From Paraburkholderia agricolaris (GTDB lineage: Bacteria; Pseudomonadota; Gammaproteobacteria; Burkholderiales; Burkholderiaceae): a DNA stretch of 64,000 bases. Shown one piece after another: positions 31,198-62,588 of this stretch (position 1 is its first letter; every line of letters starts with the position of its first letter). Position numbers and translations under genes: made by a program. A model generated the notes under the pieces. That model did not search any database. It saw nothing but the letters and a program-made list of their open reading frames with translations, and had not been told where the DNA came from. Location: the NCBI RefSeq assembly GCF_009455635.1, contig NZ_QPER01000001.1:4712001-4776000 (forward strand). The letters are read 5' to 3'.

Positions 31198-31818
31198 TTT
31201 TTGCCTGTTCGGCGGTTTTGTTTGGTTGTGCTTGTATGGCGTTGGCCTTTCCTTGTTTTGTTAGTGGTCTATTAGCGTTCCCCCTGTGCGGGGGGGCACC
31301 TACTTTTCTTTGCCTGCCGCAAAGAAAAGTAGGCAAAAGAAAGCGGCTCAAACCGCTAATTCTTAAGCGGGTCCCCCGCACAGCCGCGGTAGTGGTGCAT
31401 CTGGAATCTGTCCCATCGCACACTCCGCCTCAGTGACAAGGCAGTCATACCTCCGGCGACGCTGCGCGCGCCGACGCCCAGTTCATCACACCATCAGTTA
31501 TGCAAATCGCCGGCCAGGTTTCCCTGGCAAACCCATCCGCGACGCACGTAGTGCGGAGTGGGAGTTGATGAGCGCTTTGTCACTAACGCACAGTGTGCGA
31601 TGGGACAGATTCCAGATGCACCACTACCCCCTCCAAGCCAGGGGACCCACTTATGAGCTAGCGGTGTGAGCCGCTTTCTTTTGCCTACTTTTCTTTGCGG
31701 CAGGCAAAGAAAAGTAGGTGCTGCCCCGCACAGGGGCAACGCTAATAGACCACTAACACAGCAAGGAAAGGCCAACGCCACACAAGCACAACCAAACAAA
31801 ACCGCCGGCCCGGCAAAA
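31198..31818. repeat. Composite inverted-arm repeat element, copy 1
   Basis: About 620 bases, filling the gap between mmsA and the GMC gene. The outer ends match as TTTTTGCC..GGCAAAAA. The left arm (31198-31439) and right arm (31577-31818) are inverted copies with several perfect blocks, such as the 19-mer at 31406-31424 against 31592-31610. Each arm contains the hairpin CCTACTTTTCTTTG-loop-CAAAGAAAAGTAGG (31299-31333 and 31684-31718). The arms are not identical: the left has a CCCCCGCACAGCCGCGG segment where the right has CCCTCCAAGCC-type sequence. The unpaired core is 137 bases. The same design recurs at 60861-61505. Confidence 0.9.
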
Positions 31819-59700: not shown

Positions 59701-60117
59701 ATGCGTCGTTGCAGGGACATGAGCGCGCGCGAGATGGTCCACGGCGCGCAGCGCGGTTTTACGATGATCGAAGTGCTGGTGGCGCTGGCGATCATTGCGA
59801 TTGCGTTGGCCGCGTCGCTGCGAGCGGTGGGGAGTCTGGCGAGCGGCGAGGCCGATTTGCATCGACGGTTGCTGGCGGGATGGAGCGCGGACAATACATT
59901 GGCGCAATTGCATTTGACACATGGCTGGCCGAATGTCGGCTCGACGAGTTTTGACTGCTCGCAGGGCAATTTGCAGTTGATTTGTACCGAGCATGTGACG
60001 GCGACGCCGAATCCGGTGTTTCGTCGAGTGGAAGTCATGGTGACGATGCCTGGGCGTTCCGGCAATCTCGCCCAGATGGTCACGGTGGTCGCGAATGAAA
60101 ACAACCGTTCGCTCTGA
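59701..60117 (+). CDS. gspI: Type II secretion minor pseudopilin GspI
   Basis: 138 residues. Prepilin motif QRGFTMIEVLVALAIIAIAL after a leader of about 20 residues; mature length typical. The ATG at 59701 comes directly after the gspH stop. It overlaps gspJ by 23 bases, a sign of coupled translation. Confidence 0.94.
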   Translation: MRRCRDMSAREMVHGAQRGFTMIEVLVALAIIAIALAASLRAVGSLASGEADLHRRLLAGWSADNTLAQLHLTHGWPNVGSTSFDCSQGNLQLICTEHVTATPNPVFRRVEVMVTMPGRSGNLAQMVTVVANENNRSL

Positions 60118-60772
60118 GCGCCGCGGCCGATCGGGCGCGCGTGGTTTCACGCTGATCGAGCTGCTGGTCGCGATCGCGATCATGGCGGTGATTGCCGTGT
60201 TGTCGTGGCGCGGGCTGGACCAGATCATTCGTGGCCGGCAGACGATTACGAATGCGATGGAAGACGAGCGCGTCTTTGCGCAGGTGTTCGACCAGATGCG
60301 GATCGACGCACGTCAGGCCGCGTCGGACGATGAGTCCGGGCAGGCCGCTGTGTCGATTAGCGGCAGTGTGCTGCAGATCGTGCGGCAGATCCTGCTGCCG
60401 GGGACGGCGCCGCGCTTGCAGGTGGTGAGGTATCGCGTATCCGAGGGGCGGGTGATTCGGTATGCGTCGCCGCCGCTGGCGAATGTGGGCGAGTTGCGTA
60501 GTGCGCTGCGCGGTGGCGAGGGTGATGGCTGGACGGCAGTGCCTTTGATGGGCGGCGTTGGGGCTATTTCGGCTCGTCTTTATGTGCCCAAGGTTGGCTG
60601 GACCACGCAGATGAAGGATGTGCAGAGTGCTATTACGGAGAACGATAATAATTTGAAGGTGCCCCAGTTGGGGAATGCGCCGCTGCCGCGGTCGGTGACG
60701 GGGCTGGAAGTGAGTGTGGGGGCTAAGTCGTTGGCGCGGCCTGTCACGCGGGTTTTTCTCGTCGGAGAATGA
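60095..60772 (+). CDS. gspJ: Type II secretion minor pseudopilin GspJ
   Basis: 225 residues. Prepilin motif ARGFTLIELLVAIAIMAVIA; the family block RGLDQIIRGRQTITN and the C-terminal GspJ body follow. GGAGAATGAG at its end supplies the ribosome site for the ATG at 60774. Confidence 0.95.
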   Translation: MKTTVRSERRGRSGARGFTLIELLVAIAIMAVIAVLSWRGLDQIIRGRQTITNAMEDERVFAQVFDQMRIDARQAASDDESGQAAVSISGSVLQIVRQILLPGTAPRLQVVRYRVSEGRVIRYASPPLANVGELRSALRGGEGDGWTAVPLMGGVGAISARLYVPKVGWTTQMKDVQSAITENDNNLKVPQLGNAPLPRSVTGLEVSVGAKSLARPVTRVFLVGE

Positions 60773-60773
60773 G

Positions 60774-62588
60774 ATGAGGGTTTTGTTGTTGTCTCCGCGA
60801 CGGTTTGTGGTTGTGTGGTTTGTTCGCCTTTTGCGGCGGGCTTGGTTGCGGTCTTCTTGTGTTGGCCTTTCCTTGTTTTGCTATCGGTCTATTGGCGTTC
60901 CCCCTGTGCGGGGGGGCACCTACTTTTCTTTGCCTGCCGCAAAGAAAAGTAGGCAAAAGAAAGCGGCTCAAACCGCTAATGCTAAGCGGGTCCCCCGCAC
61001 AGCCAACGGTAGTGGTGCATCTGGAATCTGTATTCCCGCACACTTCGCCTCAGTGACAAAGCAGTCATTAGCTCCGGCGGCGCTCCGCGCGCCGATGGGT
61101 ACACCTCAAACAATCGGGCCTTTGGGCGTGACGCCCTTTTCAGCCGCACTCCCCAGTTCTGACGCACCGGCATTGCCGGGGAAAAGGGTTGGGCACTTCG
61201 CCGAGGCGAAGCCGAGGGCTCCCACTCACCCCGGCCAAGGCCGGGGGTTTTCGAAGTGGACCGTTCCGGTGAGCGCGCAGCGCGAGGCGGGAGGTATGAC
61301 GGCCTTGTCACTTCCGGTTGGGGACATTGGGGCACGGATTCCAGATGCACCACTACCCTCTCCAAGCCAGGGGACCCGCTTAAGAGTTAGCGGTTTGAGC
61401 TGCTTTCTTTTGCCTACTTTTCTTTGCAGCAGGCAAAGAAAAGTAGGTGCCCCCCCGCACAGGGGGAACGCTAATAGACCGATAGCAAAACAAGGAAAGG
61501 CCAACAAAGCAATCGCACAGCCAAAAGCCCAACGCGGCGCAGCGATCATCAGCGCCCTACTGGTAGTCGCGCTCTCAGCGATATTAGTATCGGGCATGCT
61601 CTGGCGCCAGCAAGTCCAAATCCGCAGGATAGAAAACCAGCGTCTCCTATCCCAGGCGCAATGGGTCGCCCGCGGCGCGCTCGACTGGACGCGCCTGATT
61701 CTCCGCTCGGAGGGCGACACCTCGGCAGGCATCACGTATCTGGGCGGCCTATGGGGCGTCCCCATCGCCAAAACACGTCTGTCGGATTTCCTTGGACAAA
61801 TCGGTGAAGTCAGAGCCGAGCAAGGCCAGGCAACCTATCTGTCAGGTTCAATCGAAGACGCCCAGGCGAAATTCAATCTCCGCAATCTGGTCTCGAGCCC
61901 GGCGCCCGGCGTCATGCAAGTGAACATGGAGCAGGTCGACGCCTATCAGCGCCTGCTCGTATCTCTCGGTGTGAACAGCCAGCTGGCGAAAACCACCGCC
62001 TTGCAGGTGCGCTCGAGTCTCGCGCAATCGGCGACACGTTTCCAGACGGTCACGTCCGCCGCGGGCACGACGGCGACCCCGCTCACCGCGGGCGGCGGCG
62101 CTATAGGCGGCAGCTTCACCGATAAACCCGGTATCGAGGACGGTGACGACAACGCCGCAGTCGCGCCGCTGCAAATGACCAGCGTCGATTCGCTGCTCGA
62201 TATCCCCGGCTATACGCCGGAAATGGTCGCGCGTTTGCGGCCGTTCGTCACCGTGCTGCCGACAGTGTCGGCGGTCAACATGAATACGGCCTCCGCCGAA
62301 GTCGTCGCTGCAATCGTGCCGGGGATGAATCTGTCCGCCGCACAAGCCTTCGTCGCGCGCCGGCAGACCGTGTTTTTCCATAACGTCGCCGATGTGCAAC
62401 TGGCCTTGCGCGGCGCCGGCGTACAGTCGGTGTCGATCGATCCGAATGAGATGGACGTCAACACGAGCTACTTTCTGATCCACGGCCGCGTGCAGCACGA
62501 ACGCGCGGAAGTCGATCGCACGACCCTCGTCTATCGCGATGCTTTGACTCACACTACGCGTATCGTGCGGGTACAAGACCAATTATGA
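60774..62588 (+). CDS. gspK: Type II secretion minor pseudopilin GspK, 5' end invaded by a repeat element
   Basis: 604 residues if read from the ATG at 60774, against about 350 for the mature body alone and a leader of 10 or so in other bacteria. GspK caps the pseudopilus tip. The true body begins at the prepilin site QRGAAIISALLVVALSAILV (Gly255, mature Ala256 at base 61539). It continues with the GspK signature WVARGALDWTRLILRS, a SAM-like helix-hairpin region and NMNTASAEVVAAIVPGMNLS. The 255-residue leader is encoded mostly by repeat copy 2 (60861-61505) and resembles no family. Possible internal starts (such as ATG at 61296) exist; whether this protein is made and processed is unknown. 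Confidence 0.85.
   Translation: MRVLLLSPRRFVVVWFVRLLRRAWLRSSCVGLSLFCYRSIGVPPVRGGTYFSLPAAKKSRQKKAAQTANAKRVPRTANGSGASGICIPAHFASVTKQSLAPAALRAPMGTPQTIGPLGVTPFSAALPSSDAPALPGKRVGHFAEAKPRAPTHPGQGRGFSKWTVPVSAQREAGGMTALSLPVGDIGARIPDAPLPSPSQGTRLRVSGLSCFLLPTFLCSRQRKVGAPPHRGNANRPIAKQGKANKAIAQPKAQRGAAIISALLVVALSAILVSGMLWRQQVQIRRIENQRLLSQAQWVARGALDWTRLILRSEGDTSAGITYLGGLWGVPIAKTRLSDFLGQIGEVRAEQGQATYLSGSIEDAQAKFNLRNLVSSPAPGVMQVNMEQVDAYQRLLVSLGVNSQLAKTTALQVRSSLAQSATRFQTVTSAAGTTATPLTAGGGAIGGSFTDKPGIEDGDDNAAVAPLQMTSVDSLLDIPGYTPEMVARLRPFVTVLPTVSAVNMNTASAEVVAAIVPGMNLSAAQAFVARRQTVFFHNVADVQLALRGAGVQSVSIDPNEMDVNTSYFLIHGRVQHERAEVDRTTLVYRDALTHTTRIVRVQDQL
60861..61505. repeat. Composite inverted-arm repeat element, copy 2, inside gspK
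   Basis: 645 bases, from GTTGGCC to GGCCAAC. The left arm (60861-61059) and right arm (61305-61505) are inverted, each with the CTACTTTTCTTTG..CAAAGAAAAGTAG hairpin. They differ from each other in the same way as in copy 1 (CCCCGCACAGCC side against CTCCAAGCCAGGGG side). The core is 245 bases. Its first 30 bases resemble the start of the copy 1 core (GCGCGCCGA), after which the two cores diverge. The length is exactly 215 codons and no stop occurs in the gspK frame. Confidence 0.9.

Follow-up and report, generated by a model that had tools for sequence, protein, structure and literature searches.

A dispersed palindromic repeat held open within the gspK leader of Paraburkholderia, and the compositional halo beside its copies

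In a window of 64,000 nucleotides from Paraburkholderia agricolaris (contig NZ_QPER01000001.1, positions 4,712,001 to 4,776,000; the window is the whole stretch of DNA that was analysed), the gspK gene of the type II secretion system (T2SS) contains a palindromic repeat element in its reading frame. The gspK frame is open at 30 of the 32 element-bearing junctions found among relatives, the leader encoded there is near-neutral, and the mature part of the protein is constrained. It is probable, in our judgement, that an old repeat copy is read through as the leader of GspK and that breakage or strand exposure at the repeat gives rise to a halo of biased composition beside it. The copy of the dispersed repeat would separate the start codon of gspK from the prepilin signal, and ribosomes that begin at the conserved ATG at 60774 behind gspJ would traverse the whole repeat, so that the GspK precursor would carry some 255 leader residues. 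This leader would stay in the cytoplasm; prepilin peptidase would cut after the Gly that precedes AAIISALLVV, and the leader would then be discarded. A leader that is cut off and discarded would therefore be nearly free to drift in sequence, with stops and frameshifts purged by selection. Read-through in the cell, cleavage of the leader and its disposal are steps that we infer from sequence comparison.

The repeat element and its family

The gspK reading frame with its long leader (60774..62588, + strand; 604 aa) was recognised as an open reading frame matching NF037980 (E 2.3e-89, residues 253-598, 300 bits against a cut-off of 130). Among its neighbours, GspF, GspG, GspI and GspL are matched above the respective cut-offs, and GspH and GspJ only below theirs. 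The open reading frame of gspJ (60095..60772, + strand) falls below the cut-off of TIGR01711 and is thus named by its position and this partial match; its end holds the GGAG that precedes gspK, and its 3' part lies within the left halo described below. By GspK, the closest named relative among the matches listed is P. fungorum LMG 16225 (99%). The prepilin leader as read from the sequence (60774..61538, + strand) ends in QRG followed by AAIISALLVVALSAILVSGM, that is, in a Gly and a hydrophobic tract as in class III prepilin leaders. It had been estimated at about 255 residues, and the exact count, including the cleavage-site Gly at 61536-61538, is 255. A Pfam search with GspK residues 1-256 gave no match at E 0.001.

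The element itself (60861..61505, + strand) is defined by matches to other copies, inverted arms and stop counts, and lies in frame with gspK. Its onset is 87 nt past the ATG at 60774, at codon 30 of the gene; its left end is GTTGGCCTTTCC and its right end GGAAAGGCCAAC, with inverted arms and two short perfect hairpins between. A recheck of the window sequence bore out the original prediction of a 645-base inverted-arm element just past the gspK start, since the coordinates, the length (645 nt, or 215 codons) and the arms are all exact; the 215 codons indeed hold no stop in the gspK frame (0 stops, against 5-9 in each of the remaining five frames). By similarity to other copies, the 5' arm (60861..61096, + strand) is of type A and the 3' arm (61291..61505, - strand) of type B. 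The longest left inverted arm (60842..60996, + strand) pairs at 88% with the longest right one (61370..61524, - strand), and inverted-repeat analysis together with an exact core pattern locates two short hairpin cores at 60919..60953 and 61413..61447 (both + strand). As single-stranded DNA, the segment 60842-61524 folds 26 SD below 20 shuffles.

The repeat is widely dispersed in the same genome: the best 40 of 141 candidates, once scored, yield at least 145 matching stretches when both strands are counted, and the exact hairpin core occurs 51 times, whereas a reversed control pattern occurs 0 times. A second full copy in the window (31241..31776, no strand assigned) has 4-10 stops in each of six frames, and its palindrome extends about 30 nt past the core into both flanks. 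Of the 26 arm pairs found, one is the gspK copy itself and one duplicates the second copy of the window, which leaves 24 other full copies; 14 of the 38 fetched repeat loci lack an arm pair within 1200 nt and are uncounted among them. These 24 copies are 532-841 nt long, and every one has at least one stop in each of six frames, which rules out that the element is open by nature. An open frame is thus found in one of the 25 full copies examined in this genome, the gspK copy alone. The left end reads TTAGTGG in 20 of the 24, which is a TAG in the gspK frame, and the gspK copy has CTATCGG there.

Terminal inverted repeats, a feature of MITEs, are present, and a target site duplication, also a feature of MITEs, is not evident by eye at the 8 printed copies. 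For comparison with REP/BIME-RAYT systems, one Y1_Tnp match occurs in the genome (28.5 bits against a cut-off of 23; C1:4425901-4426191), and none of the repeat copies listed adjoins it. Some full copies are accompanied by additional end pieces of the repeat in head-to-tail arrangement, at C1:3201715-3201785 and in the left flanks in L145 and L128 (handles beginning with L denote loci).

Occurrence and age among relatives

The gspJ-gspK junctions were compared at 110 loci, 90 of them distinct, drawn as a non-random sample from the best-scoring relatives (30 loci plus the best 80 of 229). The element is recognisable at 32 of the 90 distinct junctions; the rest, including junctions of genus relatives, are without it. 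In 30 of the 32, the gspK frame is stop-free over gaps of 205-1085 nt, and the other five frames hold 1-17 stops each. The frame is interrupted at the remaining two junctions, by 5 stops in L074 and 3 in L080, and every one of these stops falls within the first part of the leader. All 16 rows of the P. fungorum clade carry the element, as do 16 of the 74 other rows (a remnant in L068 included), and this distribution rules out a recent strain-specific insertion. The plain insertion in this strain that had been envisaged is accordingly replaced by an old one, common to many species. A long leader in all relatives with no empty site, which the original prediction had held to count against it, is found throughout the P. 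fungorum clade, but element-free relatives do exist. To place the element on a tree built from GspJ and GspK takes 7 changes, and supported branches force at least 5 of them.

When the gspK copies were compared with one another, with 24 dispersed copies from the genome of the window and with 8 loci of LB400, the best match was the gspK copy of another species in 30 of 31 element-bearing rows, the exception being L114. The same element DNA is read in different frames by different species, for example as TYFSLPAAKK and as HLLFFAAAKK. Both inner arm pieces match better in reversed orientation in L014, L016, L017, L018, L020, L021 and L023, with the frame still open; the reversed core at these seven gspK loci reflects either inversion or replacement from another copy.

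Selection on the leader

In all 17 pairs of relatives compared, dN/dS is 0.50-0.91 for the leader (231-361 codons long in these rows) versus 0.04-0.17 for the first 300 codons of mature GspK; the pairs reuse rows, and in one of them (L087-L093) the leader dS exceeds 1, so that its alignment is poor. Nine pairs sharing no row have 841 substitutions in the leader, for which 22.3 nonsense changes are expected and none is seen (Poisson 2e-10); this test takes the nine pairs as independent, and the L016-L023 and L014-L017 paths share one branch of the tree. Neither part of the leader is an exception, since 13.2 nonsense changes are expected in the first 55% and 7.0 in the last 45%, and 0 are seen in each. 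Because nonsense changes are missing and the leader is so much less constrained than the mature protein, selection acts on the frame and hardly on the peptide: it maintains the open reading frame and next to nothing of the amino acid sequence.

Among the options raised originally, tolerance of the long leader is the best supported, by the open frame at 30 of 32 junctions, the closed state of the other copies, the missing nonsense changes, a first part that is also stop-free, and the near-neutral leader. An impaired T2SS tip, another of these options, is unsupported, mature GspK being strongly constrained.

Start of translation

A start codon in the gspK frame lies within 40 nt of the gspJ stop at 29 of the 31 element-bearing loci in this survey (those with a gap above 400 nt) and at all 59 other loci. 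In P. agricolaris, a GGAG inside the end of gspJ (60764..60767, + strand) is located 6 nt ahead of the gspK ATG. By a script rule, GGAG, GAGG or AGGA is found at a normal distance at 19 of the 31 element-bearing and 24 of the 59 other loci, and at many of the remaining loci, judged by eye, the first start codon shares bases with the gspJ stop and is followed 6 nt later by another ATG. These comparisons point to the upstream ATG at 60774 as the conserved gspK start, with an internal start needed only in L074 and L080; in these two loci an internal start can serve, or the genes may be broken. Four public GspK records disagree on this point. One has 604 aa from the upstream start, and those of P. 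fungorum, LB400 and another have 420, 432 and 347 aa, respectively. P0003, P0019 and P0022 have their starts within the repeat or at the site of prepilin cleavage, at places that vary with the species, that of the LB400 record P0019 (432 aa) falling at the place of an internal ATG (61296..61298, + strand). The recorded starts are probably wrong in three of the four.

This ATG at 61296 had been proposed as a candidate start, and GspK might begin only inside the element, there for example, the open frame upstream being a by-product of the element sequence. Such a start would fit the public records of 420 and 432 aa, which begin within the element, and that of 347 aa, which begins at the cleavage site; L074 and L080 require one, and the junction comparison places a Met at the corresponding position in the leaders of several relatives. 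However, the first 55% of the leader is stop-free too (13.2 nonsense changes expected, 0 seen), the other full copies are closed in 24 of 24 cases, a start codon stands near gspJ at 29 of 31 element-bearing loci, and the recorded internal starts vary among species, all of which makes an exclusively internal start quite improbable. The proposal concerning ATG 61296 is therefore unsupported for a sole start and survives in that L074 and L080 need an internal one. Use of two starts, in which a long precursor coupled to gspJ and a shorter internal one are both trimmed to the same mature protein, would agree with the many leaders that read Met at this place and with the stop-free last 45% of the leader (7.0 nonsense changes expected, 0 seen), but the GGAGG ahead of ATG 61296 lies only one base from it and L064 is without the Met; we consider this arrangement unlikely. 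Initiation at the conserved ATG 60774 remains the preferred reading.

A compositional halo beside the repeats

At 25 full copies, T and G are enriched on both sides in the strand that runs toward the element, a bias that fades over about 1 kb. The 50 flanks have, on this inward strand, A 3%, C 17%, G 34% and T 45% in the nearest 50 nt. There T exceeds A in all 50 flanks, and at 150-200 nt in 39 of 50; at 600-900 nt, 49 of the 50 have more G than C. The nearest flank bases are partly ragged outer arms, and coding flanks therefore weigh more. At gspK, flank and third-position composition define a left halo (60170..60860, + strand), in which the + strand is T/G-rich, and a right halo (61506..62200, + strand), in which it is A/C-rich although it is the coding strand of gspK; both outer limits are approximate. 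The third positions of gspJ are C-poor and T/G-rich within the left halo: at codons 40-60 from its end, T is 0.25 in the 31 element-bearing loci versus 0.04 in the 59 others, and C is 0.18 versus 0.42. In the same comparison, codons 1-20 of gspK have A 0.33 versus 0.03 and G 0.21 versus 0.49, and the gap is small at codons 220-300 (A 0.08 versus 0.04). Of the 16 flanks at 8 LB400 loci, 15 have more G than C and 12 more T than A, counts that carry little weight because most of the outer ends are undefined.

A third-position halo score above 0.15 is found at all 31 element-bearing gspJ/gspK loci and at 2 of the 59 others, L035 and L068. The former is element-free, with an 88-nt gap, and is nested among element-bearing species; the latter has a 112-nt element remnant. 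Both are probable losses of the element, and since they retain the halo, it seems to outlive the element. Five independent pairs on well-supported branches contrast halo with element, of which a mean of 3.7 go the same way, 0 the opposite way and 1.3 show no difference (sign test p 0.125).

The halo might be ascribed to transcription that enters the repeat both ways, as at a two-way terminator between convergent genes. A crude longest-ORF rule gives 25 inward, 11 outward and 14 undecided flanks, and the 25 inward ones would agree with it. In all 11 outward flanks, however, G exceeds C and T exceeds A at both 100-300 and 300-600 nt, and the right flank of gspK is the coding strand, contrary to such an origin. 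These flanks rule out a coding-strand or convergent-gene effect, and we regard transcription into the repeat as a very improbable cause.

Possible origin of the halo

In the account that we prefer, breaks or exposed strands would arise chronically at the palindrome, which we infer more weakly than the leader part. Strands with their 3' ends toward the palindrome would be single-stranded for a time and would gain T by C to T and G to T changes, and this gain on the inward strands would leave a T/G-rich halo on both sides. Resection at a break would give just such an exposure, on both sides, of the strands that run 3' toward the element.

Whether the bias is ongoing was examined with third-position changes on the inward strand in 13 triplets of element-bearing relatives, polarised by parsimony with one outgroup. 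C to T changes are more frequent near the element (the last 120 codons of gspJ and the first 120 of gspK) than far from it (gspK codons 200-348), at 58/844 versus 28/998 (p 5e-5), as are G to T changes (53/2796 versus 7/1392, p 2e-4), and none of the six other change types differs between near and far at 0.05 in these triplets. When 25 element-free triplets serve as the reference, the element-bearing ones have raised rates of C to T and G to T (p 1e-3 and 9e-5) and reduced rates of T to C (p 2.5e-10), G to C (1.5e-8), G to A (7e-3) and C to A (1e-2). In gspJ alone, C to T (22/304) is not higher than in element-free triplets (104/1608). A raised overall rate of change near the element is not clear from the eight third-position change types summed per site, which give 0.060 for codons 0-60, 0.083 for 60-120, 0.087 for 120-200 and 0.058 for 200-348.

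T/G-rich strands reading into a break possibly favour RecA loading or Chi-like signals, and the halo could on this ground be selected or repair-biased rather than mutational. The orientation is the one that 3' tails would have if the element were broken, and four reverse or other rates lie below those of element-free relatives, which is unexpected under a purely additive mutation process. Yet of the eight change types tested within lineages that carry the element, C to T and G to T alone differ between near and far. We hold such a bias to be rather unlikely; it nevertheless stays a serious rival to a mutational halo, because the four rates are lower and C to T in gspJ is alike in both groups.

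SbcC is the hairpin nuclease of E. coli. At E 0.001 it was not found in the genome of the window among the best 53 of 75 candidates scored, although 14 of 14 control genomes were positive, and SbcD gave a partial match only, below its cut-off. Among 60 genomes of the family, at least 37 have some SbcC match at E 0.001, mostly weak (best 10 candidates or fewer scored per genome), and at least 9 have one above 120 bits, none of these being among the 4 genomes of the same genus; the best-scoring candidates include no strong match in the genome of the window or in G003, G038 and G040. SbcCD is thus unsupported as the breaking agent, and the absence of SbcC from the matches may be a reason why such palindromes persist. 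A bolder version of the account, which we offer tentatively and with some doubt, is that the repeats are chronic break sites in a genome without recognisable SbcC, each writing a T-gain halo of about 1 kb that outlives loss of the repeat, and that the gspK copy has long been held as a translated, open spacer free in sequence while being rewritten by breakage-driven conversion and inversion.

Relation to known systems and significance

There are some bacterial precedents for repeats within reading frames. Rickettsia palindromic elements (RPEs) are about 150 bp long and carry a conserved peptide into many unrelated genes (PMC10969869, PMC6649704). The gspK element resembles them as a palindromic repeat in frame inside a bacterial protein gene, but it is 645 nt long, the dN/dS of its leader is 0.50-0.91 with frame and core orientation varying by species, and of the 25 full copies examined in its genome it alone is open, within a leader probably removed by cleavage. 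The enterobacterial repeats RU-1 to RU-3, of 103-168 bp, likewise lie within genes as open reading frames, with the amino acid sequence maintained (PMC2759123), whereas the gspK repeat is longer and its amino acid sequence is not maintained. Class III (prepilin) leader peptides are described as having 6-26 residues (PMC4471445); the GspK leader occupies the same place and ends likewise in a Gly followed by a hydrophobic tract, but has 255 residues.

As for the halo, inverted repeats in yeast cause palindrome breaks and increased mutation in flanking genes on both sides, which is thought to proceed via single-stranded regions, reaches up to 8 kb and is Pol zeta dependent (PMC3681665). Unlike that experiment, the bacterial repeats display an evolutionary, strand-specific signature over about 1 kb, with breakage as its putative mechanism. 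Palindromes of 460-480 bp in E. coli form hairpins and are broken during replication by SbcCD (PMC4245961), and the present case differs in that SbcC was not found among the candidates scored in the genome. Among the literature matches listed, which cover few subscription journals, there is no account of the repeat, of its site in gspK or of such a halo.

The gspK gene offers a clean natural case in which selection favours an open frame but not the peptide that it encodes, the leader being one that is probably thrown away. It suggests that prepilin leaders could exceed the described length of 6-26 residues about tenfold. If the halo is mutational, dispersed palindromes would durably mark where bacterial DNA breaks locally, and the halo would bear on codon usage, phylogeny and the annotation of gene starts near repeats.
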